Shown in pieces: positions 1-30,780 of a stretch of 64,000 bases of DNA. The notes beneath the pieces were generated by a model. That model saw only the letters and a list, made by a program, of their open reading frames with translations, ran no database searches and was not told the DNA's origin. Origin of the DNA: Lachnospiraceae bacterium (lineage in GTDB: Bacteria; Bacillota; Clostridia; Lachnospirales; Lachnospiraceae). The stretch spans positions 1 through 64,000 of the forward strand of contig SVEC01000014.1 of the NCBI GenBank assembly GCA_015057555.1, read 5' to 3'. Position 1 is the first letter of the stretch. Each line of letters begins with the position of its first letter. Both the position numbers and the translations under genes were made by a program.

Positions 1-42
1 CCTGTCTACGATAAAGACGACACATTATGATTTTTATATAAA

Positions 43-70
43 GAATGCCGCAGAGAAATCTGCGGCATTC
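43..70 (-). terminator. Hairpin, probable guaA terminator
   Basis: A perfect 12-bp stem (GAATGCCGCAGA) closes a GAAA loop. On the minus strand, after the guaA stop about 100 nt upstream, it is followed by TTTATATAAAAA, a broken U-tract. It could instead end a gene lying left of the window, so the assignment to guaA is an inference. Confidence 0.5.
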
Positions 71-174
71 ACATTACATATATTCAAATCATTCTGATAA
101 CAAATTGATAACACTTTTTTGCAACCACGCCTCCCAAAAATCCAGTGTTTTCGGGCATTTCCAGCGTTTTTCTC

Positions 175-1467
175 CTACTCGAACTCTATAGTCGCTACTG
201 GCTTCTTAGTTAACTCATAACATACTCTATTAACACTTGGAACCTCAGTTGTGATTCTGTCCACAACCTTCTCCAAGAAATCATAATCAAGTCTTTCTAT
301 CTCAGCTGTCATTGCATCAATAGTATTAACCGCTCTGATAACTACCATATATCCCATGCTTCTCTCGTGGTTTCTTACACCTACTGCCTTGAAGTCTGGA
401 ATTACTGTGAAGTACTGCCATACCTTCTTGTCAAGACCTGCCTTTGCAAACTCCTCACGAAGGATTGCGTCTGCCTCACGAAGGGCATTAAGACGCTCAC
501 GAGTAATGGCGCCAAGGCAACGTACTCCAAGTCCTGGACCTGGGAATGGCTGACGGTATACCATCTCTGCTGGAAGACCAAGCTCAACTCCACAAGCTCT
601 AACCTCATCCTTGAAGAGCTGTGCAAGTGGCTCTACAAGACCGAACTGAAGGTCCTCAGGAAGTCCTCCTACGTTGTGGTGTGACTTAACTGCCTTTGCA
701 GTCTTTGTACCACTCTCTATAATGTCTGGGTAGATTGTTCCCTGTCCAAGGAAGTCAATGCCCTCAAGCTTTCTAGCTTCCTCTGCGAATACCTCGATGA
801 ACTCCTTACCGATAATCTTTCTCTTCTGCTCTGGCTCGTCCACACCTGCAAGAAGGTCTAAGAAACGGTCTGTAGCATCAACGTAGATAAGCTCTGCATC
901 AAGCTGGTTCTTAAATACATCGATAACGTTCTCTGACTCATTCTTACGCATAAGGCCGTGGTTTACGTGAACACACACAAGCTGCTTGCCAATAGCCTTG
1001 ATTAAAAGTGCTGCAACTACTGATGAATCAACTCCGCCTGAAAGTGCAAGAAGTACCTTCTTGTCACCAACCTGCTTACGAATAAGCTCAACCTGATCTG
1101 CGATGAAGTTCTTCATGTTCCAATTTGCCTCTGACTTACAAGTATCGAATACGAACTTCTTAATCACATCCTCTGCTGGCATAGTGTCGTACTTCTCGTC
1201 ACACTTTGCTGTTGGATGATCTATAGACATCACAGGATATCCACAGTCGTAGATTGCCGGGTCAACATCTACTGCTACACCGTCTACTACACGGTTCTCA
1301 CCACCATTTAAGATGATACCCTTTACATTATTAAGAGCCTTAAGTGCCTCTGGCGTAATGTCGTGTGGGTGAATCTCACTGTACACGCCCATGTCACGAA
1401 TCTGTCTTGCAATAACTGTGTTTTCTGTGCTTCCCATATCGAGAATAACAATCATATCCTGCTTCAT
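175..1467 (-). CDS. guaA: GMP synthase with degenerate amidotransferase domain
   Basis: GMP synthase adenylates XMP and aminates it to GMP. The ATP pyrophosphatase domain is intact: PP-loop SGGVDSS at residues 143-149, then a full C-terminal dimerisation domain with QPFPGPGLGVR and a terminal VATIEFE. The N-terminal class I glutaminase is a remnant of about 110 residues against about 190 normally. The nucleophile-elbow position reads PVMSID where active enzymes have PVLGIC, so Cys is replaced by Asp83, and the part carrying the catalytic His and Glu is absent. The protein is 430 aa, while complete enzymes are usually 510-525. The start was placed at the ATG at 1467 because AAGGAGAG lies just upstream; a longer frame reaching 1515 has no such site. 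By inference the enzyme is ammonia-dependent, or relies on a separate glutaminase not seen here. Confidence 0.93.
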   Translation of the reverse strand: MKQDMIVILDMGSTENTVIARQIRDMGVYSEIHPHDITPEALKALNNVKGIILNGGENRVVDGVAVDVDPAIYDCGYPVMSIDHPTAKCDEKYDTMPAEDVIKKFVFDTCKSEANWNMKNFIADQVELIRKQVGDKKVLLALSGGVDSSVVAALLIKAIGKQLVCVHVNHGLMRKNESENVIDVFKNQLDAELIYVDATDRFLDLLAGVDEPEQKRKIIGKEFIEVFAEEARKLEGIDFLGQGTIYPDIIESGTKTAKAVKSHHNVGGLPEDLQFGLVEPLAQLFKDEVRACGVELGLPAEMVYRQPFPGPGLGVRCLGAITRERLNALREADAILREEFAKAGLDKKVWQYFTVIPDFKAVGVRNHERSMGYMVVIRAVNTIDAMTAEIERLDYDFLEKVVDRITTEVPSVNRVCYELTKKPVATIEFE

Positions 1468-1691
1468 TTTTGCTCTCCTTTTGATAAAAATAAGATAGTT
1501 GTAATTATATATCAAAATTTCTCCTGTGAAAAGAATTTTTTGTTGGTAAAAAGAACTTTTTTTGCATTTTTTACAAATACGATAAAATCACATTTTATTC
1601 TGAACATTTTTTAGTAATTTTACTACTAGCTAAGTATATAAAATGCGAAGCAACACATTTTTCATAACTCAATCCCTAATAAACAATTGCT

Positions 1692-1720
1692 TTTTTCGAC
1701 ATTTTCCTATATTCTATAAT
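1692..1720 (+). promoter_or_regulatory. Candidate glnA promoter
   Basis: A perfect TATAAT at 1715-1720 lies 34 bp before the glnA start. A weak -35 (TTTTTC, 1692-1697) sits 17 bp upstream. No clear GlnR-type operator was recognised. The glnA ribosome binding site GGAGGT is at 1741-1746. Confidence 0.4.
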
Positions 1721-1754
1721 TACTTATATAAATGTATTACGGAGGTATTTTTCA

Positions 1755-3179
1755 ATGGCTAGAACAGCACAAGAGCTTATGGATATGATTAAGGACAATA
1801 ATATCCAGATGATCGACTTTAAGATTGTAGACATTAACGGTCAGTTCCGTCACGTTACAATCCCAGCAGGTCAGTTCTCAGAATCAACTTTAACAGAGGG
1901 TATCGGATTTGATGCTTCTAACTACGGCTACGCAGTAGTTGAGAAGAGTGATATGGTATTTATACCGGACCTTGACACAGCTATGGTTGACCCATTCTGT
2001 GGTGTTCCTACTCTCTCTATTACAGGTAATGCGATGGTTATCGATTACCCTAACAACAGACCTTTAGACCAGTATCCACGTAACATCGTACTTGCTGCAG
2101 AGCAGTATATGAAGGACACAGGAATTGCAGATACTATGCTTATCCTTCCTGAGTTTGAGTTCCACCTTTTTGATGATGCAGGCTGGTCAGTTTCACCTGA
2201 GAAGATTTCTATGCATGTAGACACTTCACAGGCTTACTGGAATTCTGATACTGAGGGCAAGGGCTGTGTAGTTGCTCACCAGAAGAACTACCATGTTGCT
2301 AAGCCATTTGATACTTCTTACGAGTGTCGTTCAGAGATGTGTCTTGAGATGGAGAAGGCTGGAATTCCTATAAAGTATCACCACCCAGAGGTTGGTGCTG
2401 CAGGACAGTTTGAGATTGAGCCTATGCTTGGTCAAATGTCTAAGATGGCAGACGCTACTATGATGATTAAATATATTATTCACAATACGGCTCTTAAGTA
2501 TGGCAAGGTTGCTACATTTATGCCAAAGCCAGTTTACGGTGAGGCTGGAAATGGTATGCATGTACATATGCTTCTTCTTAAGGACGGAGAGCCAGTGTTC
2601 TCAGATGACAATGGTTACTCACACTTAAGTGAGACAGCTCACTACTTTATGGGTGGTCTCTTAAAGCACATTTCTTCACTTTGTGCTATCACTAATCCAA
2701 GTACTAACTCATTTAAGAGACTTGTACCTGGCTTTGAGGCTCCAGTTACTGTTGGTTACGCTACTTCAAATCGTAGTGCAGTTATCCGTATCCCGGCTTA
2801 CGCTAAGACTCCTAACCTAAGAAGATTCGAGATTCGTAACCCAGATGCTACCTGTAACCCATATCTTGCTTACGCAGCTATTCTTATGGCTGGTCTTGAT
2901 GGTGTTAAGAATAAGATTGATCCTAAGGCTAATGGCTGGGGACCATACGACTTTAATCTTTACAACCTATCAGATGAGGAGAAGGCTAAGCTTTCAAGTC
3001 TTCCTACTACTCTTGATGCAGCACTTGATGCTCTTGAGGCTGACCACGATTACCTTACCGCAGGTGGGGTATTCCCAGAGCAGCTTATTAAGAACTTTAT
3101 CGCTAACAAGAGAAAGGAATGCTTTGAGCTTTCTAAGATTCCTCATCCAGCGGAGTTTGATAGGTATTTTAATCTTTAA
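1755..3179 (+). CDS. glnA: Type I glutamine synthetase, GSI-beta-like
   Basis: Glutamine synthetase makes glutamine from glutamate, ammonia and ATP. The 474-aa length, the roughly 25-residue insertion after EFEFHLFDD, and the NLYNL segment resemble the beta form (about 470 aa, as in enteric bacteria) more than the about 440-aa alpha form usual in Firmicutes. Tyr403 in NLYNL aligns with the tyrosine adenylylated in enteric enzymes, but no adenylyltransferase is in the window. Conserved signatures include KPVYGEAGNGMH, NPSTNSFKRLVPG and NRSAVIRIP. It is a single-gene unit on the plus strand, divergent from guaA by 287 bp, and ends just before the structured element at 3192. Regulation through adenylylation is possible but not shown. 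Confidence 0.96.
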   Translation: MARTAQELMDMIKDNNIQMIDFKIVDINGQFRHVTIPAGQFSESTLTEGIGFDASNYGYAVVEKSDMVFIPDLDTAMVDPFCGVPTLSITGNAMVIDYPNNRPLDQYPRNIVLAAEQYMKDTGIADTMLILPEFEFHLFDDAGWSVSPEKISMHVDTSQAYWNSDTEGKGCVVAHQKNYHVAKPFDTSYECRSEMCLEMEKAGIPIKYHHPEVGAAGQFEIEPMLGQMSKMADATMMIKYIIHNTALKYGKVATFMPKPVYGEAGNGMHVHMLLLKDGEPVFSDDNGYSHLSETAHYFMGGLLKHISSLCAITNPSTNSFKRLVPGFEAPVTVGYATSNRSAVIRIPAYAKTPNLRRFEIRNPDATCNPYLAYAAILMAGLDGVKNKIDPKANGWGPYDFNLYNLSDEEKAKLSSLPTTLDAALDALEADHDYLTAGGVFPEQLIKNFIANKRKECFELSKIPHPAEFDRYFNL

Positions 3180-3191
3180 TCAATAAAACCT

Positions 3192-3316
3192 AAAGGCTGT
3201 GCGGATTTACGTAACATCCCGGTCTGCCTAGGGTTGGTCCACGCTGACACTTAAGACGGTCAGCTTAGTCCCAACCCTGTCGCGCCCGGTTGGTACATTT
3301 ATTGCGCACAGCCTTT
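3192..3316. ncRNA. 125-nt structured repeat element, copy 1
   Basis: The outer 12-bp stem AAAGGCTGTGCG/CGCACAGCCTTT encloses CCGG/CCGG pairing, an AGGGTTGG/CCAACCCT stem and a GCTGAC/GTCAGC apical hairpin. A 16-nt block (3218-3233) and a 25-nt block (3275-3299) are identical in copy 2 at 30656-30780. The element lies between the convergent ends of glnA and the histidine kinase gene. Both flanks carry T-rich runs on the outgoing strand, so it could act as a two-way terminator, but the conserved interior suggests more. The transcribed strand is unknown, and I could not match it to a named RNA family. Confidence 0.7.
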
Positions 3317-3334
3317 ATTATTTTCCTCATCAAT

Positions 3335-4324
3335 TTACGCTCTATACATCTTTATGTTAAAAGTACTACCCTTGTCCTTTTCACTTTCCACTGTGATATT
3401 TCCATTCTGTCTCATAATTATCTGCTTGGACATGGAAAGACCTATTCCCACGCTGCTGTTTGATGAGCCTGGTGCTTTGTAGAAGCGCTTAAATATGTAT
3501 GGTAGGTGGTCTTTTTCTATTCCCTCTCCTGTGTCTGTTATTGTTATTTCAGTAGCTAGGTTGTTTTGCTCTACCTTTATTCTAACACTTCCCTCAGATG
3601 GGGTGTGCTCGATACAGTTTTTCACTATATTGGATATAGCTTCAGTGGTCCATTGCTTATCACAAGTTATGTAAACTTCGTCAGGACATTCAAGAGAAAG
3701 TTCTACATCCTTTACCTCTGCTATTATCTCGAAGGTTTCCATTATACCATCAAGCATTCCCCTAAGATTATTCTTTTCTTTTTTTAGCTCAAGCATATCT
3801 GCCTCAAGCTGTGATAGAGTGAGAAGATTTCTTATAAGCCAAGTTATTCTCTTAGTCTGCTGATCTATCTTTGCCACATAGTCAAGACGCTTTTCCTCTG
3901 ACAAATCAGGTGCCTTAAGCAAGTCTGTCATAAGAGTTATGGCCGTAAGAGGTGTCTTTATCTGATGAGATATGTCTGATAACATATCTACCATATAGCT
4001 CTTCTGCTTTTTCTCTCCGGAATACATTTCCTTAAGCTGTGCCACTAGCTTATATATCTCACTTTCAAGGATTCCAAGCTGTCCTTCACTGATTCCCTCC
4101 ATAGCAGGAAGCTCTAAATTGTCCTGAACTCTCATAAGATATATGATTAGATCTGCCAGCTTGTTCTCACGCTTTTTGTAAGCAACATAAGCTACTACAA
4201 CCATAGCTACCATGGAAAATCCTAGTATAATCAGAACCCCTAGTGGGCTATGGGTAAATACACATATTAATATTCCTACTATAATTGCTATAACTGCAAT
4301 TATAAGTTGTATCATAATTTCCAT
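3335..4324 (-). CDS. Sensor histidine kinase, intramembrane-sensing type
   Basis: This is the sensor of the pair with the response regulator 13 bp upstream. Two membrane segments (about residues 5-22 and 28-48) are joined by a very short loop, so there is no real extracellular sensor domain. The dimerisation domain has the H-box SDISHQIKTPL with the phosphorylatable His120. The HATPase domain shows N (NIVKNCIEHTP), DTGEGIEKDHLPYIFKRFY and GIGLSMSKQI boxes. Such kinases often take their signal from an ABC transporter encoded next to them (Bce type). Here an exporter follows directly, so control of that exporter, perhaps in response to a cell-wall-active peptide, is a reasonable inference. GGGGAA precedes the start. 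Confidence 0.9.
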   Translation of the reverse strand: MEIMIQLIIAVIAIIVGILICVFTHSPLGVLIILGFSMVAMVVVAYVAYKKRENKLADLIIYLMRVQDNLELPAMEGISEGQLGILESEIYKLVAQLKEMYSGEKKQKSYMVDMLSDISHQIKTPLTAITLMTDLLKAPDLSEEKRLDYVAKIDQQTKRITWLIRNLLTLSQLEADMLELKKEKNNLRGMLDGIMETFEIIAEVKDVELSLECPDEVYITCDKQWTTEAISNIVKNCIEHTPSEGSVRIKVEQNNLATEITITDTGEGIEKDHLPYIFKRFYKAPGSSNSSVGIGLSMSKQIIMRQNGNITVESEKDKGSTFNIKMYRA

Positions 4325-4337
4325 TATTTGTTCCCCA

Positions 4338-5033
4338 CTATTCCATTAGATATCCTATACCTCTAACGGTCTGAATAAGCTGATTTTCATCTGTATCCCC
4401 AAGCTTCTTTCTAAGTCTCTTTATGTACACGCTAAGGGTATTGTCATTTACAAAGTCCCCAGCCTCGTCCCATATCTGATTAAGGATCTGCTGTCTGGAC
4501 AGATTCTTTCCTCTGTGCTGGATAAATATAAGCAAAAGCTTATACTCCATGGCAGTTAAAACTATTTCCTCGCCATCACGATATACCTTTGCAGTATTTA
4601 TATTAATCTGGTTTTCTCCCACCATAACAATTCCATTATCTGAAGCTCCACCTGTAGAAGAACCGCTCATTGCACCACTTCTTCTAAGTATAGCCTTCAT
4701 CCTGGCAAGAAGCTCCCTTATACGAAATGGCTTTGCTATATAATCATCTGCTCCCTGCTCTAGGGCAAGTACAGTATGTACCTCATCATCACAGGCTGTA
4801 AGAAAAAGTATAGGAATCTGACTTTTCTCTCTAACCTTCCTGCATATCTGATAACCGTCCCCATCTGGTAGCATCACATCCAGCAGGCATATATTTATGT
4901 CTGTCACTGAGTCCACTATGTGAAATGCATCCTTCATAGTGGACGCATTTACCACCTCATAGCCCTCCTGCTCTAGGGATATCTTTAGACCTTCCATGAT
5001 TATGGAATCGTCCTCAACAACTAAAACCTTCAT
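4338..5033 (-). CDS. OmpR/PhoB-family response regulator
   Basis: The receiver domain is at residues 1-120, with acidic residues in VVEDD, the phosphoacceptor Asp52 in LLDVMLPDGDG, and the conserved Lys in IAKPF. A C-terminal winged helix (about 135-230) carries TAMEYKLLL, VYIKRLRKKLG and RGIGYLME. The start was set at the ATG at 5033 because AAGGAGAT lies directly upstream; the longer frame to 5066 has no such site and would run into the hairpin element upstream. It is followed by its kinase with a 13-bp gap. The likely target is the neighbouring ABC exporter operon, which is inferred from context only. Confidence 0.92.
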   Translation of the reverse strand: MKVLVVEDDSIIMEGLKISLEQEGYEVVNASTMKDAFHIVDSVTDINICLLDVMLPDGDGYQICRKVREKSQIPILFLTACDDEVHTVLALEQGADDYIAKPFRIRELLARMKAILRRSGAMSGSSTGGASDNGIVMVGENQININTAKVYRDGEEIVLTAMEYKLLLIFIQHRGKNLSRQQILNQIWDEAGDFVNDNTLSVYIKRLRKKLGDTDENQLIQTVRGIGYLME

Positions 5034-5057
5034 AATAATCTCCTTCACATTTCTACA

Positions 5058-5236
5058 TACGCGCACACCCCCGTAATCACCTGCCGGTAATTACGGGGGG
5101 GCGTAACCAGGCCTTCGCTACGCTGGGCCTGGTTCGCGCACATTCGCCAAAGGCAGTCTAACAAATATGCCCGCTTGAAAGCAAGCTTTCAGCGGGCACA
5201 TTCATTATCCTACCCTTGGCTCATTGTGTTCGCGTA
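5058..5236. repeat. Multi-hairpin intergenic element, copy A
   Basis: The stretch folds into nested inverted repeats: outer TACGCGCACAC/GTGTTCGCGTA with one mismatch, CCCCCGTAAT/ATTACGGGGG, AACCAGGCC/GGCCTGGTT, and TGCCCGCT..AAAGC/GCTTTC.AGCGGGCA. Read on the minus strand it shares short blocks (CAATGAGCCA, an AGCTTGCT hairpin loop, GGCGAA) with the elements at 15391 and 34858. It fills the gap between the exporter permease stop and the response regulator start. It may be a mobile or RNA-type repeat of this genome. Confidence 0.55.
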
Positions 5237-5238
5237 CA

Positions 5239-8049
5239 TTATACACTCTCTCTGCGTATATCTTCAATAATATTTTCATTTTTTTCTGTTTTAAAGCTTA
5301 CAAATGTTACTGCAAAGAGGGCTACTGTTGCTGCAAGGATTGCTACTACATATATCATCCAAGGTACTTCTATCTTCACAAATCCGTACATATCCATAAG
5401 TGTATTCTTAATAAATATAATTACCGGTGTAGCCACAAGCACTGCCACAGCTACCGCTCTTATAAGTATCTGGCCACTTTCTAAAGCAAGCATCTTAATC
5501 ATCTGCTTATCTGTCATACCCATTGAACGAAGAACTGCAAATTCCTTCTTCTGAGTAGAGATTCTTCCCTTTGTTGAATTGTAAAGGTTAAGAAGACAGA
5601 TGATTGATGTGAGGGCTACAAAGCAGATTAGAAGGATTCTAATTACTGAATTAAGGGCAGTTTCTAAGGTCTTTGTATCAAGCATTTCCTTACCGTATAC
5701 AAGTATTCCTTCTCCTTCGTTTTTAACAGCTAATGCAAGCTCCCCAAGCTCCTTATAAAGCTCACAGTCCTGATTAGAGAATTTTACCATCACATCCCTA
5801 AATACCATTCCACTGTACTCATCAGTACATATAATCTGTCTCATCTCCTCCATAGTATCAAGCTTAGTTATAATCCACATATTTTGGGAGTGCAATGTAA
5901 CATAGTCCTCTAAAGACTCTCTATCAGCTACTGCTGCCACAGTTACATTTATATCCTCATACTCCTTAGTGTCAGAATCATACACATGAAGAGGGAACTC
6001 ATCTCCTACATTTTTCGCAAATGCATTTTCAATCTCATAGAACTTATAATCAGCTGTATCACCAAACACCATATTGTCAGTTGAAACCTCTGCAAAGCCT
6101 ACAAGAATTACAGGTGCCTTAGTGTCATCATTTAATATAGTTTTATCTACGCCACAAGCCTCAGCTATCTGGTCAAAGTGTGCATCATCAAATGCCATAA
6201 CACTTACATCTTTATACTTTAAAGGATGTGGGTTTCTCATTCGCTCTCTATCCTCTTCAGGCACACCATATGCATCAAATATATTTTCCCTTGCCTGGTT
6301 ATACTCCTGTCCGATTACATTCTCATCCACAAATGCCATATTGAAGTCATATACATATTCCACAACATCTTCTACATTTTCATCATTACGAGCCTTACCT
6401 ATTAATTCCTGCATCTGCTCCTCGTAATCATCTCCCACGTAATTTTGTATCACAAAATCATTCTCATAATTTACACTGATGTTGTCATCATCTACCAACA
6501 CATGAGATATCATAGTTGTAAGCAGGTTTGATGAAAATGCTGTAATAATAAGAATCATAATAAATACTGCCACAGCACCGATAATTCCTCTAGTCTTCTT
6601 TTTCTTTCTCTTTACTGAGTTTGCTGCAAGAAGACCCTCTGCTCCGAAAAGCTTTATAGCAAGCTTATTTACCTTATGTGTTTTCTTGCTTCTGGATGCA
6701 TTTCCTCTGATACACTCTATAGGTCCAATCTTACCGATTTTTCTAGCTGGAAGGTAAGCTGAAATCCAAACTGTAAATACTGAGAATACTATTGTAAATA
6801 ACACTCCTATAAGTGATATATTAAGTGGTACCTTATCAAAGCCTACATTTGAATAAATACCAAGCAAAGTATCCATGTAAGGCTTCAAAATTGTCATACC
6901 AAGCTTAACTACTCCGAGTCCTACTAAGAATCCAACTGGAAGGGATACAAGTAATAAACTAAATGCCTCATAATACACACTACTTCTCTTCTGCTTTCCT
7001 GTTGCACCAACTGATGAAAGCATTCCAAGGTATTTGCTTCTCTCCTCAAAGGACATATTGAATACATTGTAGATAAGTATTACTGATGCAACGATTATAA
7101 TCACTACGAAGAATATTGTCATAATATCAACCATGCCGCTAATGGTTGAGTCAGGTGAGTTTCCTGAGAAGGCAAGGAGAATACCGTTGAATTCTATGTT
7201 ATCATAGCCACCTACAATTTCCTCTATCCCATTATATTCTCCGTCAAGCTTACTTAAGTTAAATCTGATAGATACATTAAATGTGCCATCTATAGTAGCA
7301 TTATCATCCTGTAAAGTAATAGCTGTGTAAGCTGCTGAGTCTTCAGCCTCATAGATTGGTCTCTCAACGAAACCAACCACCTTATATGTAGTAGTAAAGC
7401 CTGTATACTCTCTTTCCTCTACAAACTCTTCAACAGGGTCTGTATCCTCTGGGGCGAAGTAGAAGAAGTTATCCGGTGCCTCTACATAATCGCCTGGCTG
7501 TAAAACCAAATTATAGTATGGGAATATAGTATTGGTTTTGCTATTTTCACTCTTGCTCAAAAATCTCTTAAAGCAATCCACAGATATCTCATCCCCAATC
7601 TTAATATCTGCACCATCATTTTTTGCATCCACACAAAGTACAAGCTCTCCGGCTTTTTCCGGGAATCTTCCCTCTGCAAGCCTCATATTCATCCAGTCAA
7701 AGTTTTCCTTGCTGTAGGCCTTAAGGTTAATGTAAGGTCTAACAGGATTTGCTGACTGCTCAAATACAGATAAATCATATCCTACTGATACTGCAGTTTC
7801 ATCTACCGCTTCAAGATTTTTAATCTTCTCATACTGGCTAGCATCTACATCATAAGCATTGATATGCCACTTACCCTGACTCTGTGATGCAAGTATCTCT
7901 AAGTAATTAACCGCTGTATCCTTTCCCACGAATACGCAAGTCATAAGCATTACCATAAATATTATTCCAAAAAGAGTTGTCATTGTTCTCTTCTTGTTTT
8001 TCTTCATATATTCCTTTGTTACCTGAAATACTATTTTCTTATTACTCAT
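5239..8049 (-). CDS. FtsX-family ABC exporter permease
   Basis: This is a large permease (936 aa) of the FtsX/MacB/Vex type with two copies of the core. It has an N-terminal membrane segment (about 20-40), a large external domain to about residue 300, and a three-helix FtsX core with the IYNVFNMSFEERSKYLGMLSSVGAT motif. A second external domain is followed by a C-terminal core with TQKKEFAVLRSMGMTDKQ. It pairs with the ATPase upstream, overlapping it by 8 nt (ATGAGTAA), which implies translational coupling. The ATG at 8049 is preferred over a TTG at 8064. The family exports peptides, lipoproteins or lipids, or works in antimicrobial-peptide resistance. The adjacent two-component system favours the last role, but the substrate is unknown. 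Confidence 0.88.
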   Translation of the reverse strand: MSNKKIVFQVTKEYMKKNKKRTMTTLFGIIFMVMLMTCVFVGKDTAVNYLEILASQSQGKWHINAYDVDASQYEKIKNLEAVDETAVSVGYDLSVFEQSANPVRPYINLKAYSKENFDWMNMRLAEGRFPEKAGELVLCVDAKNDGADIKIGDEISVDCFKRFLSKSENSKTNTIFPYYNLVLQPGDYVEAPDNFFYFAPEDTDPVEEFVEEREYTGFTTTYKVVGFVERPIYEAEDSAAYTAITLQDDNATIDGTFNVSIRFNLSKLDGEYNGIEEIVGGYDNIEFNGILLAFSGNSPDSTISGMVDIMTIFFVVIIIVASVILIYNVFNMSFEERSKYLGMLSSVGATGKQKRSSVYYEAFSLLLVSLPVGFLVGLGVVKLGMTILKPYMDTLLGIYSNVGFDKVPLNISLIGVLFTIVFSVFTVWISAYLPARKIGKIGPIECIRGNASRSKKTHKVNKLAIKLFGAEGLLAANSVKRKKKKTRGIIGAVAVFIMILIITAFSSNLLTTMISHVLVDDDNISVNYENDFVIQNYVGDDYEEQMQELIGKARNDENVEDVVEYVYDFNMAFVDENVIGQEYNQARENIFDAYGVPEEDRERMRNPHPLKYKDVSVMAFDDAHFDQIAEACGVDKTILNDDTKAPVILVGFAEVSTDNMVFGDTADYKFYEIENAFAKNVGDEFPLHVYDSDTKEYEDINVTVAAVADRESLEDYVTLHSQNMWIITKLDTMEEMRQIICTDEYSGMVFRDVMVKFSNQDCELYKELGELALAVKNEGEGILVYGKEMLDTKTLETALNSVIRILLICFVALTSIICLLNLYNSTKGRISTQKKEFAVLRSMGMTDKQMIKMLALESGQILIRAVAVAVLVATPVIIFIKNTLMDMYGFVKIEVPWMIYVVAILAATVALFAVTFVSFKTEKNENIIEDIRRESV

Positions 8050-8746
8050 TGACCTTTCCCCCAAGTACTCTTATTCTCTCGTCCCTAGTTAACTTTCCAT
8101 CTTCTATGTAAATAATTCTATCTGCCTGTAATGCAATACTCTCATCATGTGTGATAAGAATTAATGTCTGCTTCTGCTTTCTGTTTGACTCCTTAAGAAG
8201 CTTCATAATCTCCTCGCCGGTCTTTCTGTCAAGGTTTCCTGTTGGCTCGTCTGCAAGAACGATTGCAGGCTTGTTAAACATGGCTCTTCCGATTGATACT
8301 CTCTGCTGCTGTCCTCCTGATAACTGACTTGGAAGATTCTTTCTTCTATCTGTAAGTCCGATTTGCTCTACTATCTTATCAAGTCTCTCCGGATCCATTT
8401 TTCTTCCATCAAGTAAGTGTGGAAGCATAATGTTCTCGTCTACATTTAACACTGGCATCAGATTGTAGAACTGATAGATAAGTCCAATCTGTCTTCTTCT
8501 AAATATCGCAAGTTTGTCCTCATTTAAGCTGTGAATGTCTGTATCCTCAATGAACACCTTTCCACTTGTTGGCTTATCAACTCCACCTAAGATATGAAGC
8601 AGTGTTGACTTACCACTTCCTGAAGGTCCGATGATTGATACGAACTCTCCCTTCTCTACGCTAAAGCTTACATTGTCTAAGGCTTTGATTTTGGTGTTCC
8701 CCTCACCGTACTCCTTAGTTAAGTTTTCGCATCTTAAAATTTCCAT
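8042..8746 (-). CDS. ABC exporter ATP-binding protein (LolD/MacB type)
   Basis: ATPase of 234 aa energising the FtsX-like permease downstream. It carries Walker A GPSGSGKST, Q-loop IGLIYQFYNLMPVLNV, the signature LSGGQQQR, Walker B IVLADEPTGNLD and the switch His in LITHDE. Sequence around the Q-loop and ADEPTGNLD is typical of the subfamily including LolD, MacB, FtsE and BceA. The ATG at 8746 was chosen because GGGAGG lies 8 nt upstream; a frame extended to 8764 lacks this. It is the first gene of a two-gene operon, with the perfect inverted repeat at 8868-8915 upstream. Confidence 0.92.
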   Translation of the reverse strand: MEILRCENLTKEYGEGNTKIKALDNVSFSVEKGEFVSIIGPSGSGKSTLLHILGGVDKPTSGKVFIEDTDIHSLNEDKLAIFRRRQIGLIYQFYNLMPVLNVDENIMLPHLLDGRKMDPERLDKIVEQIGLTDRRKNLPSQLSGGQQQRVSIGRAMFNKPAIVLADEPTGNLDRKTGEEIMKLLKESNRKQKQTLILITHDESIALQADRIIYIEDGKLTRDERIRVLGGKVNE

Positions 8747-8867
8747 TTGTTTTTCCTCCCGCAATTCTATTTCTTGTATTCTTTTTTGGCTTTCTCCTTG
8801 CTACGGATTAGCTCTTGCTTACTAGCTTGATGTTAATATAACAGATTATTTATGATTATAAATGACT

Positions 8868-8915
8868 GTGAGATGAAAAAATAGTGACAGTTTTGTCACT
8901 ATTTTTTCATCTCAC
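8868..8915 (-). terminator. 22-bp perfect inverted repeat, probable terminator
   Basis: The arms GTGAGATGAAAAAATAGTGACA and its exact complement flank a 4-nt loop (GTTT). It begins 7 bp after the DUF3137 gene stop on the minus strand, so termination is the simplest reading. The A/T-rich middle of the stem and the lack of a clear T-tract after it are unusual for an intrinsic terminator. Confidence 0.55.
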
Positions 8916-8921
8916 ATCATT

Positions 8922-9791
8922 CTAATTTTCATAATAACGCTTCATTGCATCAACTATATCTATCACTACCTGTATATGTTTTTTTACTCTTGCCATCTCT
9001 ACATCATACTTTATCTTTTTCTTTCCTGGTGTATCAAAAGCATGCTCAGCACTTATAGCTACATATAATCTGTGATTCGTGAATCTAAATGCAACATTTT
9101 TATATCGTTCTTGTATACTCATCATCTTTTCCATAAAATGAGGTGTTAAAACATAAAACGCATCCTCCTCATCTATAGAATACACATTAAAGATATTGTT
9201 AAATTCAATATTTTCAAGTAATACCTTATTACCTAACTCCTCTATCTTACTTTCAAAATTTTTATCTAAAACCTTCACATCATTCACATTTTTATAAGTA
9301 TAGTCAAAGCACAAAAGGCGCCCTGAAAAGTAAATCTTTGCTGATTTTCTTTTATTTTCATCAACAAATCGACTTTCAACATCCGCCTGACAGAACCTAA
9401 TTCCTCTATAGGATGCAAACAAAACATCATCTGAACCGTATATATTACCTAACTTTATAAGACCTGATTCTGCCACATTTCTAGGTTCCAACCCTTGCCA
9501 TGGACGATAATCAACATCATCCAACATTGAATACAGCAAATCATATACAAATGTTTCTTTATATAAGATTTTAAACTTTTTTATTGTTTTTTTATTTATA
9601 CTTGTAAAAAAACTCATAATTATACAGAGCACCAATCCCAATAAAAAACTTTTGGGTATTGATTTCTCAGTAATGGTAGCTACAGCCATTACCGTAACAA
9701 TCAATATAAACATAAGTATGCTAATAGCGTATAGCACTTTAATTTTTATTCTCATCTTTTCGAGCTTCTTTATAACGGTTTTAGCTTCCAT
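8922..9791 (-). CDS. DUF3137-family membrane protein
   Basis: Function is not known. Two hydrophobic helices near the N-terminus (about residues 17-39 and 48-64) anchor a soluble C-terminal domain of about 200 residues. The stretch NNIFNVYSIDEEDAFYVLTP followed by HFMEKMMSIQER matches my recollection of DUF3137 proteins, where an F-x-V-Y-S, D-x-x-A, Y-x-L-T-P pattern recurs. The basic linker between the helices and the cytoplasmic-looking domain suggest both ends face inside. The start is uncertain: ATG 9791, ATG 9803 and GTG 9812 are all in frame, and 9791 has the best spaced GGAAG. A short frame (9842-9931) precedes it. Confidence 0.7.
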   Translation of the reverse strand: MEAKTVIKKLEKMRIKIKVLYAISILMFILIVTVMAVATITEKSIPKSFLLGLVLCIIMSFFTSINKKTIKKFKILYKETFVYDLLYSMLDDVDYRPWQGLEPRNVAESGLIKLGNIYGSDDVLFASYRGIRFCQADVESRFVDENKRKSAKIYFSGRLLCFDYTYKNVNDVKVLDKNFESKIEELGNKVLLENIEFNNIFNVYSIDEEDAFYVLTPHFMEKMMSIQERYKNVAFRFTNHRLYVAISAEHAFDTPGKKKIKYDVEMARVKKHIQVVIDIVDAMKRYYEN

Positions 9792-9841
9792 TTTCACTTC
9801 CATCCCTTCCACACTTCTGGTTTATATCCGATTGTGGCAAT

Positions 9842-9931
9842 TTAATCATTTATCACCTTTTTTATCAGCCTTTCAAAGGACTCCTTAAATCTTACATCAT
9901 CTTCCTCCGTTCTCTTTGCTGGTTCCTTCAT
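9842..9931 (-). CDS. Possible small ORF or gene remnant, 29 aa
   Basis: The frame ATG 9931 to TAA 9842 encodes a very polar peptide, MKEPAKRTEEDDVRFKES followed by FERLIKKVIND. The same frame stays open for another 30 codons upstream into the end of the KptA gene, reading SEDSSRRSSSKHH, but has no standard start there. Composition looks coding. No good ribosome binding site is visible. It may be the remains of a gene, or a small protein working with the DUF3137 gene 30-50 bp downstream. Confidence 0.25.
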   Translation of the reverse strand: MKEPAKRTEEDDVRFKESFERLIKKVIND

Positions 9932-9981
9932 ATGATGCTTGCTACTTGAGCGCCTACTAGAATCTTCACTGTTGATTACTC

Positions 9982-10536
9982 CTAATTCTGTTGTTTCTCC
10001 AAATACTCCGCTGGCACAGCTTTAGTTAACCACACCCCATTAACCGAACGATAAAACTTATAACCATCCTGGCTCATCTTACCACTATTTACTTTATACA
10101 TCAGCAGCTTCCCATGTCTTTTTCCTACCTTTGTAGCGGTTTCCACATCTCCTGACAAATGCACATACAGTCTGGACTTTGGAACTAACCCTTCCTTGTC
10201 AATTGACTCCATATATTTTGTGGCAGTTCCATGCCACAGATACTCTGAAGGCATAACTTCCTCAAGCTCCACATCCACAGGGATAGAATGGCCCTGGTTG
10301 GCTCTTATCAATGTCTTATCCTCATTAAATGAATATCTCTGCTTGTTATCTGTTCTTACGATTTCCTCAAGCTTTTCCATATCAATGTTGTTACTTGTAT
10401 TCACTTTATTTATACCTGTGATAAGCTCATCCACATTTGCCCAGCCATGCTCGTCTAGCTCGATATTAGCAGCACTTGGCTTGTGTCTTAGGATGAGGCT
10501 TATGAACTTGCTTAATTCTGTTAATGATTTACTCAT
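9982..10536 (-). CDS. kptA: RNA 2'-phosphotransferase (Tpt1/KptA)
   Basis: The family moves an internal RNA 2'-phosphate to NAD+, giving ADP-ribose 1'',2''-cyclic phosphate; in fungi this completes tRNA splicing. The 184-aa protein has the N-terminal winged helix with LILRHKP and LDEHGWANVDELI, and the C-terminal NAD-binding fold with LWHGTATKYMESIDKEGL, LYVHLSGD and HGKLLMYKV. The conserved basic residues (Arg in LRHKP, His in WHGT) are present, so it is probably active. Bacteria lack the fungal splicing pathway, so its natural substrate is unclear. GAGGAG precedes the ATG. No RNA ligase or RtcB gene is nearby. Confidence 0.92.
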   Translation of the reverse strand: MSKSLTELSKFISLILRHKPSAANIELDEHGWANVDELITGINKVNTSNNIDMEKLEEIVRTDNKQRYSFNEDKTLIRANQGHSIPVDVELEEVMPSEYLWHGTATKYMESIDKEGLVPKSRLYVHLSGDVETATKVGKRHGKLLMYKVNSGKMSQDGYKFYRSVNGVWLTKAVPAEYLEKQQN

Positions 10537-10746
10537 ACTATGTCTCCTCTTTCAATTTATCTATCTTTATACATACTTTGTTTCATAGCTTTTTGTACAT
10601 TATAGCAAGCTATAAACTCCAAGGCAAACCTTTATAACGGTTTTATACTACAAGAATACATTTTTCATAAAATATTACAGATAATATCCATCGCCTGTAA
10701 TCATTCGTGTTATCCGAACATATCCGGAAATAATTAATTATCACCA

Positions 10747-10775
10747 TTGACTAGTGAGAATTATTATAGTAATAT
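10747..10775 (+). promoter_or_regulatory. Sigma-A-type promoter of a possible antisense RNA
   Basis: TTGACT (10747-10752) and TAATAT (10770-10775) are 17 bp apart. A transcript starting near 10782 would be about 100 nt long, ending at the hairpin 10834-10880, and would be antisense to the 3' part of the minus-strand transcript from 11004. No good plus-strand coding frame explains it. Confidence 0.5.
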
Positions 10776-10833
10776 CTATATAGAAAGAAAGATGCTATCC
10801 CATAGGATAGTGGCTGACCTTTCGGTTGAAGTT

Positions 10834-10880
10834 ACAAAAAGCAACCTCTACTCTTGGTCGTGTGAGTGGTTGCTTTTTGT
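10834..10880. terminator. Two-way terminator with 13-bp stem
   Basis: The arms ACAAAAAGCAACC and GGTTGCTTTTTGT flank a 21-nt loop. Each strand ends in GCTTTTTGT, so it can stop transcripts from both sides. The loop includes the stop codon (10848-10850) of the small minus-strand hydrophobic frame. Confidence 0.75.
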
Positions 10881-10967
10881 ATGTATATCTTTAGCTTTTC
10901 TCATAGACTTAACTGTAGCAACGATACTAATACTAGTAACAACTATGCTTGCAACAAGATAGCACCT
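10848..10967 (-). pseudogene. Small hydrophobic toxin-like frame without a normal start
   Basis: An open frame of 39 codons reads RCYLVASIVVTSISIVATV, then the basic KSMRKAKDIHTKSNHSHDQE. A short membrane segment with a charged tail resembles type I toxin peptides. A strong promoter lies directly upstream (10976-11004), and the stop sits in the terminator loop, with an antisense promoter facing it from the other side. There is no ATG, GTG or TTG in frame before the internal Met22, so it is either decayed or uses an uncommon start. AAGGTG lies at the 5' end. The layout, not homology, is the evidence. Confidence 0.35.
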
Positions 10968-10975
10968 TCAAGGTC

Positions 10976-11004
10976 ATTATATCGCAATCACATCGCAATA
11001 TCAA
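10976..11004 (-). promoter_or_regulatory. Sigma-A-type promoter of the toxin-like frame
   Basis: TTGATA (10999-11004) and TATAAT (10976-10981) are separated by 17 bp on the minus strand. Predicted start is near 10969, giving a very short leader that begins at the AAGGTG motif. A repeated TTGCGAT/ATTGCGA motif lies in the spacer. Confidence 0.6.
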
Positions 11005-11089
11005 GAACGGAAATACGATATTTTCTCATTGCAAAAGAGCTGATAGATTAACTACCAGCCCTTACTCTAGATTATTATTCTAATTTACT

Positions 11090-11668
11090 TTACTCACCTG
11101 ACTCCAGTGATATTTCATAAGAATCAGCAGTTCCTGTAACAGTGTAGTTCACCATCTCACCATTACATTCCACCTGACCACTTGCCTTACCGTCAGCAAA
11201 GTCTTCAGTAATGTCCACTGTCTGACCATATACTACAAGTAGCACCTTGCCATCTTCAGCTTTAAGCTCTGCTGTATTCGACATTGAGCCCACAGTGTCC
11301 TCTGTAGATACATCAGCTTCATCAACCATTGATACTACCACATCGTCATTCTCATCAACATCAAGATGCATCTCTGCTACCGTAGCGTCGCCCTCCTGCG
11401 TTATAGTAACATCAACCTCCTGCTTCTCACCATTGATATAAACATAGGCTTTCTCCACCCAAGTCTCACCTGTTGCTGCATAGCAGATTCCATTTGTTCC
11501 TGCAAATGTAAGTGCGAACACTCCAAATGCTGCAGCTGCATACTTTAACACATTTCTCTTATCAAATTTCTTTACTTCCTTATTCTTCATATCCATAACC
11601 TTTCCGAACAGCGCATCTGGTGCATGAATCTCATCATACGCTCCCCGTACATAATCTCTATTATTCAT
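11090..11668 (-). CDS. Membrane-anchored anti-sigma-like protein
   Basis: The 192-aa protein has a cytoplasmic N-terminus of about 37 residues (YDEIHAPDALFGKVMDMKNKE), one membrane segment (about 41-60, AAAAFGVFALTFAGTNGICY) and an acidic external domain of about 130 residues. The N-terminal segment resembles that of anti-sigma factors in clostridia. Its start overlaps the ECF sigma stop by 8 nt (ATGAATAA), which strongly suggests that it is the cognate anti-sigma factor. The external signal is unknown. Confidence 0.75.
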   Translation of the reverse strand: MNNRDYVRGAYDEIHAPDALFGKVMDMKNKEVKKFDKRNVLKYAAAAFGVFALTFAGTNGICYAATGETWVEKAYVYINGEKQEVDVTITQEGDATVAEMHLDVDENDDVVVSMVDEADVSTEDTVGSMSNTAELKAEDGKVLLVVYGQTVDITEDFADGKASGQVECNGEMVNYTVTGTADSYEISLESGE

Positions 11669-12155
11669 CTTCCCACGCCTCCTTCAGCTTTGCTCTTAAC
11701 ATTTTTCTTGCTGCCACAAGTCTGGTCCTGACAGTTGGTTCCTTGATATGTAATATTTCAGCTATCTCCTTAGAGGAGTAATCCTCGTAATAAAAGAGGT
11801 ATATAACAATTCTACTTTTGGCTGGTAGCTCCTTAATGGCTTTAAACAGCTCCTCATGTTTCCCATCTGCGAATTCCACCTCATAGGAAGCCTCTTCAGA
11901 CATCTCATCTGTAGAGCCTACATTTCTTCGCCAGAATGTGGAAAATAAGCTGTTGCACTCATTAACACAAACTCTAATCAGCCACTTTTTAATATGCTCC
12001 TCATCCTTGAAGCTCACCTGCTTGGTGAGAAGCTTCATAAAGGTCTGCTGAACCACATCATCTGCATCCTGTGTGGACTTGGTATAGCTTAGAGCTATCC
12101 TATAGATTGTATCAATATTCTCTTTTACAATGCGTTCGTATTCTCTACTATCCAA
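11661..12155 (-). CDS. ECF-type RNA polymerase sigma factor
   Basis: The 164-aa sigma factor has region 2 (YRIALSYTKSTQDADDVVQQTFMKLL and the -10 recognition helix with HIKKWLIRVCVNECN) and region 4 (IKELPAKSRIVIYLFYYEDYSSKEIAEIL, with the recognition helix EPTVRTRLVAARKML). Translation begins at TTG 12155, supported by GGAGGTG 5 nt upstream; there is no better ATG. It is the first gene of a two-gene operon with its putative anti-sigma factor. It would direct a small stress or envelope regulon, probably including itself. Confidence 0.92.
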   Translation of the reverse strand: MDSREYERIVKENIDTIYRIALSYTKSTQDADDVVQQTFMKLLTKQVSFKDEEHIKKWLIRVCVNECNSLFSTFWRRNVGSTDEMSEEASYEVEFADGKHEELFKAIKELPAKSRIVIYLFYYEDYSSKEIAEILHIKEPTVRTRLVAARKMLRAKLKEAWEDE

Positions 12156-12280
12156 GACCTCACCTCCTGACTTGTGATTTTGTTTTAAAGGCCTTCAATA
12201 TAATAACGGTTGAAAGAGTCGATTTGTGCGATTTATTTTAAAAATATTTTTTAGACTACCACATCCCTTAACGCAAAGCA

Positions 12281-12308
12281 ATCCCCAGTGGAATTAACCA
12301 CTGGGGAT
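12281..12308 (-). terminator. Hairpin after the second sigma/anti-sigma operon
   Basis: ATCCCCAGTGG and CCACTGGGGAT flank a short AATTAA-type loop, starting 5 bp after the stop of the gene at 12313. The downstream minus-strand sequence TTGCTTTGCG is not a strong T-tract, so it may be a partial terminator or transcript-stabilising hairpin. Confidence 0.6.
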
Positions 12309-12312
12309 AAGC

Positions 12313-13821
12313 TTACTGCCTAATATCAATTACACCTGTATCAAGTATACTTTGTTTAAAATAATCTGTTGGGTCTGCACATGTAATATCAAAATACATA
12401 TAAGGCAACCAATCTTCTCTAACTACATAGCAAAATGAAGCTGTCCTTGTCTCTCCTGCCTGCACACTCTCAAAATGATTCTTTTCCCACACATCATTTC
12501 CATTATAAAAATAGATTTCATCTGGCTCATTTCTATAGTAGCTTGTTCTTACCACATCATATTCAGTGTCTCTTGCAAGTGGGCTTAACCCATCATATAT
12601 TTCATAGTTATCATTATTATCATTAATAAGCATTAGATTACCATAAAAGCTCATCTCTGAAGCTCCTGTATCTGAAGTATATTCCACCTCAATATAAACC
12701 AACTTAACCGGAATAGTTTCAGTAGCTACAACCTCATCTAAAGAATTTACTCCGTCGCCCACCTTACAATAAGACACTATCTCATCCTTTAGCTTACCAT
12801 TTTCATCTACAAAATCCGGATGTTCTCCCTGGAAGAAATCAAACACATCTTTATTTACAACACTTAAATCGTCACTTATTTCTACCTTGGTCACTTTCAC
12901 ATTACTATTTTGCTCAGAAATTTCAAACTCCTCTCCAACCTGATAAACCTTAAGCTCATCCTTGGCAACAGTAGTTCTTTCCTCAAGCTCATCTTCTGTC
13001 TCCACATAGATTATATTTTCCTCCTGAACACTCTCAAATGGCGGAACATAGGCTGGTGCTGACATATAATTTTTATTACTTGCTTCTTCAGCCTCTTCCT
13101 TAGTTGCTACCTCAAGACTAATTCCCTTTGCTACATTTACAAACTCATCCTTGGTTATACCCGGCTGTGCCCAGATATCTAGCACATAGCCTATATCATA
13201 TGCCATATATATCTTTCTTCGACCACCATCTAGTTCTACCAATACAGCTGTACCTCCAGGAACTTCAAATTCTTCGGTATTTATAACATTCACATCATTA
13301 TGAGTATATTCCACTCCCTCGTGTATTCTCCACATATAAAAGGTCATGCTTCTGTTAGCTCTATCTGTCTCAGAGTGAGAATGTAGCTTAGGTGTAGCCA
13401 CATCCTCCGGCCACTCAACATATATATCCTCCGGCATATAGCTTATATCAAGATGAACGTAGTTTTCTTCATTCATAAGCTCATATCTATCATAAGGAAC
13501 TTCCGTTGTATCCTCATCTACATCCACATTCTCCTTCTCATCCCCATTATCAGCACTTTCTGATACAGTAACCTTAGTCTCTAGTCCATACTCACCCTTC
13601 TTCTCTGTGGTTATGGATATAAGCTTAGATGCAGCATATACTGTAGTTCCAACCAATAAGGTTCCTACAAGGGCAGCTACTGCATACCTTATGAATTTGC
13701 CTTTTTTCACAATGTGTTTTCTCTCTACACCGTCAGATATTTCATTTTCCACCTGCTGCTTAATCATATCTCTTATATCATCAGGCATTTTCGGGTAATC
13801 CTTCTTATCTATCTTCATCAT
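12313..13821 (-). CDS. Membrane-anchored anti-sigma-like protein, large
   Basis: The 502-aa protein is organised like an anti-sigma factor: cytoplasmic N-terminus of about 43 residues beginning DYPKMPDDIRDMIKQQVENEI, one membrane helix (about 46-64, YAVAALVGTLLVGTTVYAA), and a long acidic external part. The first half of the external part (residues 110-250) resembles a DUF4367-like fold region with WAQPGITKDEFVNVAKG. The second half (about 290-500) has many aromatic beta-strand-like stretches. It overlaps the ECF sigma gene by 17 nt, so it probably holds that sigma factor at the membrane. The family assignment of the external domains is tentative. Confidence 0.7.
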   Translation of the reverse strand: MMKIDKKDYPKMPDDIRDMIKQQVENEISDGVERKHIVKKGKFIRYAVAALVGTLLVGTTVYAASKLISITTEKKGEYGLETKVTVSESADNGDEKENVDVDEDTTEVPYDRYELMNEENYVHLDISYMPEDIYVEWPEDVATPKLHSHSETDRANRSMTFYMWRIHEGVEYTHNDVNVINTEEFEVPGGTAVLVELDGGRRKIYMAYDIGYVLDIWAQPGITKDEFVNVAKGISLEVATKEEAEEASNKNYMSAPAYVPPFESVQEENIIYVETEDELEERTTVAKDELKVYQVGEEFEISEQNSNVKVTKVEISDDLSVVNKDVFDFFQGEHPDFVDENGKLKDEIVSYCKVGDGVNSLDEVVATETIPVKLVYIEVEYTSDTGASEMSFYGNLMLINDNNDNYEIYDGLSPLARDTEYDVVRTSYYRNEPDEIYFYNGNDVWEKNHFESVQAGETRTASFCYVVREDWLPYMYFDITCADPTDYFKQSILDTGVIDIRQ

Positions 13822-14290
13822 TTAATCCTCCTTCCAAATATACTCTTAGCTTTTTTCTGGCTCTGGCTAATCTCTTCTTAACCGCAGATTCAGTGGAATC
13901 AACCATAGTGGCAATCTCCTTTATCCTGTAGCCCTCTATGTAGTAAAGTACTATGGCAGTCCTGTAATCCACCTCAAGCTTCATGATAGCCTCATAAAGC
14001 TCAGAATAGTTTTCAGACTCCTCATAGCCAAGCTCATAAGTATGAGCCTCTATATCGTCTACATTTTTTCTTTTTCTCAAAATATCATAGCACTCATTAA
14101 TTAGAATTCTTGTGAGCCAGGTCTTAGCGAACCTATCCTTCTTAAGGGTATCAAGTTTCTCAAAGCCCTTAGTTATAGCCTCAGATATAGCATCTCTGCA
14201 ATCTTCATCACTATATAAAATTGACTTTGCTACTCTGTACAAGCTCTCCTGGGCATCTATCACAAGCTTGCCAAAGGCTTCCTTATTCAT
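13805..14290 (-). CDS. ECF-type RNA polymerase sigma factor
   Basis: Second ECF sigma factor of the window, 161 aa from the ATG at 14290. Region 2 includes LYRVAKSILYSDEDCRDAIS and FAKTWLTRILINECYDILRKRK. Region 4 includes LEVDYRTAIVLYYIEGYRIKEIATMV and ESAVKKRLARARKKLRVYL. GAGGAGGT lies 10-11 nt before this ATG; a GTG at 14302 sits on top of that site and is unlikely. It heads an operon with the large anti-sigma-like protein and is similar in layout, but not closely in sequence, to the pair at 11090-12155. Confidence 0.92.
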   Translation of the reverse strand: MNKEAFGKLVIDAQESLYRVAKSILYSDEDCRDAISEAITKGFEKLDTLKKDRFAKTWLTRILINECYDILRKRKNVDDIEAHTYELGYEESENYSELYEAIMKLEVDYRTAIVLYYIEGYRIKEIATMVDSTESAVKKRLARARKKLRVYLEGGLNDEDR

Positions 14291-14340
14291 ACACTTGATC
14301 ACCTCCTCATTTTGTGTTGTATTCCGGATTACATATATTA

Positions 14341-14365
14341 GACGGAATAGGAACAGAAAAGTCCC
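14341..14365 (-). promoter_or_regulatory. Possible ECF-type autoregulatory promoter
   Basis: On the minus strand GGGACT (14360-14365) and CGTC (14341-14344, within CGTCTAATATA) are 15 bp apart, about 50 nt upstream of the sigma gene. A CGTC -10 is typical of ECF promoters and differs from the TATAAT boxes elsewhere in the window. Self-activation by the sigma factor is an inference. Confidence 0.35.
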
Positions 14366-14617
14366 ACGTAAATAATTTAAAACAACTTTTTTAATATAAT
14401 CTTAAATCAATTATTATACAAAGCATTTGATAAATCAAAACTACCATCTATTATCATCAAAAAGCACGTCTTAAATCATATCATGAATCACAACACAAAT
14501 TATATCATTACCAGAAAAAACTCCTGCTATTAAGTATTTAAAAATCTAATGTGCACACACTATATCTAAAGCATTATATCAAATACTAATCATATAGAAA
14601 AATGGAGGATATATAAA
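14366..14617. other. AT-rich spacer, no gene seen
   Basis: This divergent region between the sigma operon and the plus-strand gene at 14618 holds only AT-rich sequence. No open frame of note, strong hairpin or clear -35/-10 pair was found. AATGGAGGATATA at its right end is the ribosome binding site of the next gene. Confidence 0.5.
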
Positions 14618-15052: not shown

Positions 15053-15096
15053 GTCAGACTTACCATATTGGCATATGATAATCTAAACATTACCTT

Positions 15097-15340: not shown

Positions 15341-15390
15341 ATATCTATTCTGTCTTGTACCTGTCATATCTGTAAATACCAAGCTCACAA

Positions 15391-15526
15391 AATGAGCTAT
15401 GCCGACACATCGCAAGCACAGCTTGCTCAGTGTCGCGGCGTTCGCCCTATGCATCTTAACACAAAAAAGGCTGACTGTGAGCAAGCTCACATCAGCCTTT
15501 TTAGGTTAATCTGCGCATGGCTCATT
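15391..15526. repeat. Multi-hairpin intergenic element, copy B
   Basis: The outer arms AATGAGCTATGC (15391-15402) and GCATGGCTCATT (15515-15526) pair with one G-T wobble. They enclose a CGACAC..CAAGC/GCTTG..GTGTCG hairpin and a long TTAAC..AAAAAGGCTGA/TCAGCCTTTTT.GGTTAA hairpin whose T-run can end transcription. Read on the minus strand it shares ordered blocks with the copy at 34858 (GCAAYGAGCYATGCRCAGAT, AAAAAG hairpin, GGCATAGC). The right arm overlaps the last seven codons of the AsnB-like gene. Confidence 0.65.
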
Positions 15527-30655: not shown

Positions 30656-30780
30656 AAAGGATGTGCGATTATATTGTATCTCCCGGTCTGCCTAGGGGAT
30701 AAAGCTTCGCTGACACTACAACGGTCAGCTGCGCTTCACCCCTGTCGCGCCCGGTTGGTACATTGTGGCGCACATCCTTT
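30656..30780. ncRNA. 125-nt structured repeat element, copy 2
   Basis: This has the same length and layout as 3192-3316. The outer stem is AAAGGATGTGCG/CGCACATCCTTT: relative to copy 1 a C-G pair has become A-T, a compensatory change. Identical blocks lie at 30682-30697 and 30740-30764. The middle stem has different sequence but still pairs (GGGG/CCCC, AAGC/GCTT), and the apical GCTGAC/GTCAGC hairpin is kept. It again lies between convergent gene ends (SDR and YfbR-like). A conserved RNA structure is likely; the function and strand are not known. Confidence 0.72.

Follow-up and report, generated by a model that had tools for sequence, protein, structure and literature searches.

Which kind of element stands twice, at 125 nt each time, in the 64,000-nt stretch of a Lachnospiraceae genome analysed here (the window)? 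A sequence-only reading had proposed a duplicated structured RNA motif, either a known clostridial one or a new one, and we asked what the two copies are, how far the family extends, and what could maintain and spread it.

Two copies of a folded element in the window

Both copies lie on the forward strand and are 125 nt long, as had been proposed. Copy 1 (3192..3316; 122.6 bits with the covariance model described below) is flanked by convergent genes for a glutamine synthetase (1755-3179, +) and a sensor histidine kinase (3335-4324, -). The genes on either side of copy 2 (30656..30780; 130.4 bits) are convergent as well and encode a short-chain dehydrogenase (29912-30637, +) and a YfbR-like nucleotidase (30798-31385, -), all four being assigned by Pfam. 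Two blocks are identical between the copies, one of 25 nt (CCCTGTCGCGCCCGGTTGGTACATT) and one of 17 nt (TCCCGGTCTGCCTAGGG), the latter previously counted as 16 nt. The left outer arm of copy 1, AAAGGCTGTGCG (3192..3203), pairs with its right outer arm, CGCACAGCCTTT (3305..3316), which is followed by ATTATTTT; the arms of copy 2 are AAAGGATGTGCG (30656..30667) and CGCACATCCTTT (30769..30780). Covariation of the arms is seen throughout the family: in the outer stem AAAGG(C/A)TGTGCG...CGCACA(G/T)CCTTT, a compensatory change from C-G to A-T separates copies 1 and 2, and the inner stems differ by matched changes which keep the pairing, so that both of these earlier observations hold. Inside the arms are the left and right strands of a conserved core (copy 1, CCCGGTCTGCCTAGGG at 3218..3233 and CCCTGTCGCGCCCGG at 3275..3289; copy 2, 30682..30697 and 30740..30754) and an apical hairpin, GCTGAC..GTCAGC, at 3243..3264 (loop ACAC..ACGG; helix 6, 100% of cells paired) and 30709..30729. 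Folded as RNA with 10 nt of flank on each side, copy 1 reached -56.7 kcal/mol (z -5.56) and copy 2 -67.2 kcal/mol (z -7.74), and none of 200 shuffles of either copy folded as well.

The Rfam check suggested earlier was run, and both copies match no Rfam family: in an Rfam 15 scan of the window neither exceeded the gathering threshold, at E<=10 all matches of the two copies were far under the gathering scores, and the TwoAYGGAY model (RF01731, cmscan) had a match at neither copy. The sole match in the window is a 6S RNA (RF00013; 34997-35175, -; 86.6 bits). ERIC repeats have a similar length of 126-127 bp; the ERIC2 primer consensus, with up to three mismatches, had 0 matches in the window. A consensus terminator scan of window positions 1-20000 with loops of 3-8 nt did not list copy 1.

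Family size and distribution

We refer to the source genome, a 2.5-Mb draft, as G000, to genomes of the same genus as G401, G406, G409, G411 and so on, and to fetched stretches or loci by L-numbers. The core pattern with up to three mismatches occurred 20 times in G000 and a strict core pattern 34 times, with 0 matches of the reversed control and of the strict control, respectively. A covariance model built from 17 copies found at least 40 full-length copies in G000 at >=68.8 bits (150 of 218 first-look candidates scored); beyond these 40, the 54 rows of this search include 13 echoes on the reverse strand and a single match that is weak and short, and copies cut by contig ends (L003, L004, L012) come on top. 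In light of these copy numbers, the empty reversed control and the shuffles that never folded as well, the pair in the window is not a chance resemblance.

Among the 37 genomes of the genus, with 92 candidates scored per genome, five are rich in copies (match rows, echoes included: at least 49 in G000, 33 in G401, 43 in G406, 48 in G409 and 12 in G411), G410 (5 rows) and G420 (1 row) carry a few weaker or diverged ones, and 30 are without a match. The relatives in G410 (L056, L062, L067, L072) and G420 (L057) retain the core CTGYCTGGG / CCNGYCGCG and have a long plain hairpin in place of the apical module. None of the other 396 family genomes in the sample (397 in all) matched the strict core pattern; absence across the family was judged by this pattern, which would miss diverged cores like those of G410 and G420, because the family-level model search scored only 8 candidates per genome. 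Copy 1 had no blastn match at E<=0.01 among plasmids and phages. A pattern scan of IMG/VR gave three matches, which we attribute to chance since all fall in one coding stretch (phage tail-sheath-like by eye) that the covariance model does not match. A gene-containing version, sought as orphan half-cores in 41 stretches (the window and L274-L313), yielded no more than two cut-down copies and a single match that looks like chance. No published description was found in a literature search of partial coverage, and the family of ~40 scattered folding elements is apparently undescribed.

Structure and covariation

Across 99 distinct copies, in an alignment fitted to the covariance model, 94.0% of cells pair as against 76.4% in shuffles and 30-43% in slid alignments. 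Both partners vary in 31 of 41 pairs, and the covariation score of 0.453 compares with 0.134 in shuffles and with values no higher than 0.095 in slid alignments. A MAFFT alignment of 17 copies gives a similar picture (89.1% paired, 21/41 pairs changed, slides 36-47%). Building and searching with a covariance model, as had been recommended, thus returned many further genomic copies, and covariation rose as copies were added; neither a similarity to a transposon end nor a loss of covariation in further copies was found.

The layers of the hairpin differ in the kind of pairs they accept. In the outer arms all four Watson-Crick pairs occur at 12 of 13 positions, and pairing is near-perfect Watson-Crick, with 15 G-U and 24 A-C among 1241 cells. 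The core and the apical loop are near invariant; the core motif has two near-fixed U.G pairs (98/99 and 96/99 copies) and overall only one A-C in 791 cells versus 209 G-U, mostly from the two fixed pairs. For the inner stem the picture is mixed, with 22 G-U, 13 A-C and 70 other among 594 cells. To the right of the element, T accounts for 51-81% at the first four positions (108 copies). The G-U and A-C counts point to selection at the RNA level in the core and not in the outer arms, which upholds the earlier claim of selection on RNA structure for the former only. The outer arms look constrained on both strands, as a bidirectional terminator or a DNA palindrome would be, because they have no excess of G-U over A-C and antisense copies are about as frequent as sense copies, while the core looks constrained on the sense strand.

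Placement at gene ends

Placement was scored with the longest ORF as gene call for 112 sequence-distinct copies of seven genomes, three copies at contig ends being left out; the counts include five diverged G410/G420 copies, and orthologous copies of several genomes are entered separately. Of the 109 copies placed, 66 lie between convergent genes, as both window copies do, 20 are tandem sense, 22 tandem antisense and one divergent; without the diverged G410/G420 copies the tandem counts are 22 antisense versus 16 sense. In G000 only (n=39), 22 are convergent, 17 tandem (9 sense, 8 antisense) and none divergent, with convergent gene pairs making up 65/713 (9.1%) of the background in 861.8 kb of that genome. 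The earlier idea of a structured element with covariation is supported, in the form of a dispersed repeat at gene ends and not of a single discrete motif.

Orthologous sites and plain terminators

Orthologous sites of the five rich carriers were compared within the fetched stretches, in 148 directed comparisons (reciprocals counted twice); the element kept its orientation in 103 of these, was inverted in 16 and was missing in 29. As antisense placement is as frequent as sense and orthologous copies can be inverted, the element has no fixed orientation to the transcript. At least three of the 29 rows without an element are misclassified (L070 to G409, L070 to G411, L161 to G409), the stretch being cut or the core diverged, and setting these three aside leaves 16 distinct element-less loci. 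A script found a plain hairpin with a T-run at 11/16 of them with loops up to 34 nt and at 9/16 with loops up to 12 nt; by eye, 14/16 have one, as the script overlooks imperfect stems. The remaining loci are a bare gene junction (L193 to L341) and an ambiguous case (L373). Since most gene ends should have a plain hairpin in any case, their presence at element-less sites supports an exchange only moderately. An extra plain terminator between the element and the neighbouring gene was seen at only 14 of 109 copies (loops <=12 nt).

At most element-less orthologues the stems are unrelated to the element arms, and the arms are clearly common at two loci. One is the copy 2 locus, where G409 carries AAAAAGGATGTGC-TT-GCACATCCTTTTT, i.e., the arms of copy 2 minus the inner 100 nt, so that the same arm sequence stands there as a plain terminator; G406 has an inverted element at this locus, and different plain hairpins stand there in G411 and G431. 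The other is the L172 locus, where the arms of the G401 element, AAAGGGCGAG..CTCGCCCTTT, equal those of the plain terminator in G000. Elements occupy this locus in G409, G411 and G401, the G406 contig ends inside one, and by eye plain hairpins are found in G000, G413, G402, G400, G427, G416 and G431 (of the 20 loci looked at in this survey, two were unanchored, that of G412 was wrongly anchored and others were ambiguous). At both shared-arm loci, the core may have been either gained or lost. At the copy 1 locus, an element oriented like copy 1 is present in G406, and G409 has a plain terminator with a possible right-arm remnant and a different downstream gene.

Two further observations concern hairpins of other kinds. 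Positions 15244-15398 of the window (~15.2-15.4 kb) hold several other hairpins; the corresponding site is occupied by an element in G409, G401 and G411. Downstream of glnA, at copy 1's position, G412 (L250) and G402 (L252) have a different long hairpin, ATTAGYCAYATNTATCWGTAAAC, with three pattern matches in each of the two genomes and one control match in G412.

Turnover, modularity and long forms

Orthologous elements in the same orientation are 55-100% identical, compared with an average of 69% for random pairs, and their differences fall in blocks. In 40 orthologous pairs the identities of arms and apical module are weakly correlated (0.35): three pairs at two loci combine arms of >=0.9 with an apical module of <=0.75, and three pairs, again at two loci, combine arms of <=0.6 with an apical module of >=0.9. 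Individual values include L061/L172 (arms 1.0, apical 0.66) and L064/L054 (arms 0.62, apical 0.98). One copy is nested (L017), close inverted or tandem neighbours occur in G401 (C80), G406 (C32) and G409 (C11), and in cut-down forms only the arms or a portion of the core are left (L310, L313, L280).

Several copies (L008, L010, L013, L020, L021) sit within larger nested palindromes. A multi-layer inverted-repeat unit of ~660 nt at L008:1390-2062 and, in reverse, at L013 (95% identical) holds a TwoAYGGAY RNA (74.4 bits in L008, 70.9 bits in L013) in addition to the 125-nt element, and L008 folds into large arms beneath one outer stem. The contigs C1, C2 and C23 of G000 end inside near-identical copies of the 5' part of this unit. 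TwoAYGGAY is itself dispersed in the genus, being found in 20 of 37 genomes with 35 matches in G421, 27 in G398 and 25 in G414, and all 12 copies that were folded, out of more than 150, lie within a very long near-palindromic stem. Close inverted TwoAYGGAY pairs are present in G406 and G411.

A proposed two-way terminator with a conserved core

We propose, with a probability of about 0.62, that the element is a lineage-specific small interspersed repeat that would act as a two-way intrinsic terminator with a conserved core in its loop; the proposal builds on the observed copy number, covariation, placement, indifference to orientation, plain hairpins at element-less sites and module differences. 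Each copy would form one long hairpin whose outer arms, preceded by A-rich and followed by T-rich sequence, may serve as an intrinsic terminator for transcripts coming from both sides. Inward from the arms would follow a variable middle stem, the almost invariant core CCGGNCTGYCTAGGG / CCCTGYCGCGNCCGG with its two U.G pairs, and innermost a variable inner stem with the conserved apical hairpin. Copies occupy gene 3' ends in either orientation and presumably trade places with plain terminators over time, in whichever direction. Nested, tandem and inverted pairs would reflect gains of copies, other copies would have been lost or trimmed to core-less hairpins, and modules would have been swapped, probably through recombination between copies. 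Some means of spreading and a factor that reads the core are both supposed.

The terminator part of this proposal agrees with a G+C-containing hairpin at gene 3' ends with an A-rich left and a T-rich right flank. Against it, the folded interior of ~100 nt is unusual for an intrinsic terminator, which has a short loop, the T-tracts are moderate, and 14 of the 109 copies have a further plain terminator beside them. The RNA-type G-U tolerance and the near-fixed U.G pairs suggest a strand-specific role of the core beyond termination alone.

The dispersal of the copies, one of them nested in L017, their presence at some and absence from other orthologous sites, and their patchy distribution in the genus would also be explained if the element were a MITE, with the outer arms as terminal inverted repeats, a transposase acting in trans, and gene ends merely tolerating insertions. 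The arms are indeed inverted, but their sequence is free instead of conserved, 12 of the 13 positions showing each of the four Watson-Crick pairs, and since they vary so freely a transposase would be left without a fixed terminal repeat. Moreover, element-less sites mostly hold other hairpins and not empty targets, one of them being a bare junction, and the Y1 transposase domain PF01797 (RAYT-type), the only transposase looked for, had 0 matches in G000, G401, G406 and G409 and one 43-aa fragment in G411; the carriers so searched and the orthologous loci yielded neither a mobilising enzyme nor a target-site duplication or a cleanly empty site. We consider a MITE unlikely.

The core is where an RNA acting in cis or in trans would find its best case: a sense transcript that folds and binds a protein or small molecule, as a 3' UTR or small RNA owing to the gene-end site, accords with core pairs that accept G-U far over A-C, with the two near-fixed U.G pairs and with the near-invariant core and apical loop. 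Such an RNA would hardly be expected antisense in 22 tandem pairs versus sense in 20 (22 versus 16 without G410/G420), or inverted in 16 of 148 directed comparisons, and we regard it as improbable. The strong convergent enrichment and the near-perfect Watson-Crick arms with no G-U excess over A-C would suit a DNA architectural site as proposed for REP/BIME, i.e., a cruciform or protein-binding palindrome handling supercoils between convergent genes; the RNA-type G-U tolerance of the core, the 42 of 109 copies outside convergent pairs and the 30 of 37 same-genus genomes without matches make this very improbable.

The two-way terminator with a core in its loop may be one case of a wider class, which we put forward tentatively and hold to be rather doubtful: bidirectional terminators of this clade could host an exchangeable guest core in their loop, TwoAYGGAY being another guest, with core and arms as separate modules. 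Cores would enter, leave, flip and swap, both arms would be rewritten jointly with pairing kept, and TwoAYGGAY and the 125-nt element could share one palindrome. If true, this would be a DNA/RNA element specialised for life in terminators.

The family turns over fast, and new stem sequences take the place of old ones without loss of pairing, so that its more than 100 natural copies allow one to read how selection acts on structure, strand and position. It suggests that terminators can be niches for dispersed elements, links TwoAYGGAY, an unexplained Rfam family, to the same architecture, and offers ready material for the question of whether RNA selection or DNA-level repair preserves palindrome arms.

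Comparison with known systems

REP/BIME palindromes resemble the element in being palindromic and in preferring gene 3' ends, both in unidirectional and in convergent pairs (PMC3733652). According to that source, REPs are 20-40 bp long, carry a GTAG or CGTC tag and often come with a RAYT transposase; the element is 125 nt long, and the missing PF01797 in four of the five rich carriers rules against a REP/RAYT identity. The bcr1-bcr18 repeats of the Bacillus cereus group are likewise lineage-specific and intergenic, some MITE-like, some conserved in structure, and often in UTRs; compared by description, terminator exchange is not mentioned for them in the accessible portion of their account (PMC3446304).

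The closest known systems are the pneumococcal SPRITE/BOX repeats and TwoAYGGAY RNA. The latter has a conserved core inside a long palindromic stem in this genus, a trait outside its published definition (PMC2864571). It differs from the element in its core, and the genomes rich in it are different from those rich in the element. Its two hairpin loops seem to resemble CsrA sites, and it might be a CsrA sponge; a CsrA-type GGA loop was dropped for the 125-nt element because many copies lack GGA (by eye).

SPRITE, BOX and RUP of Streptococcus pneumoniae are small interspersed structured repeats, mostly found in close relatives only, enriched between convergent genes and sometimes inserted in one another, and in all these respects the element is like them (PMC3049150). 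According to the same account, SPRITE resembles a rho-independent terminator and has 15 of its 30 copies between convergent genes, and BOX is modular, one BOX being a composite with two T boxes. By description, the 125-nt element is set apart from SPRITE and BOX by its sequence-free arms, its conserved core with covarying stems, its Lachnospiraceae hosts and the plain hairpins at its element-less orthologous sites.
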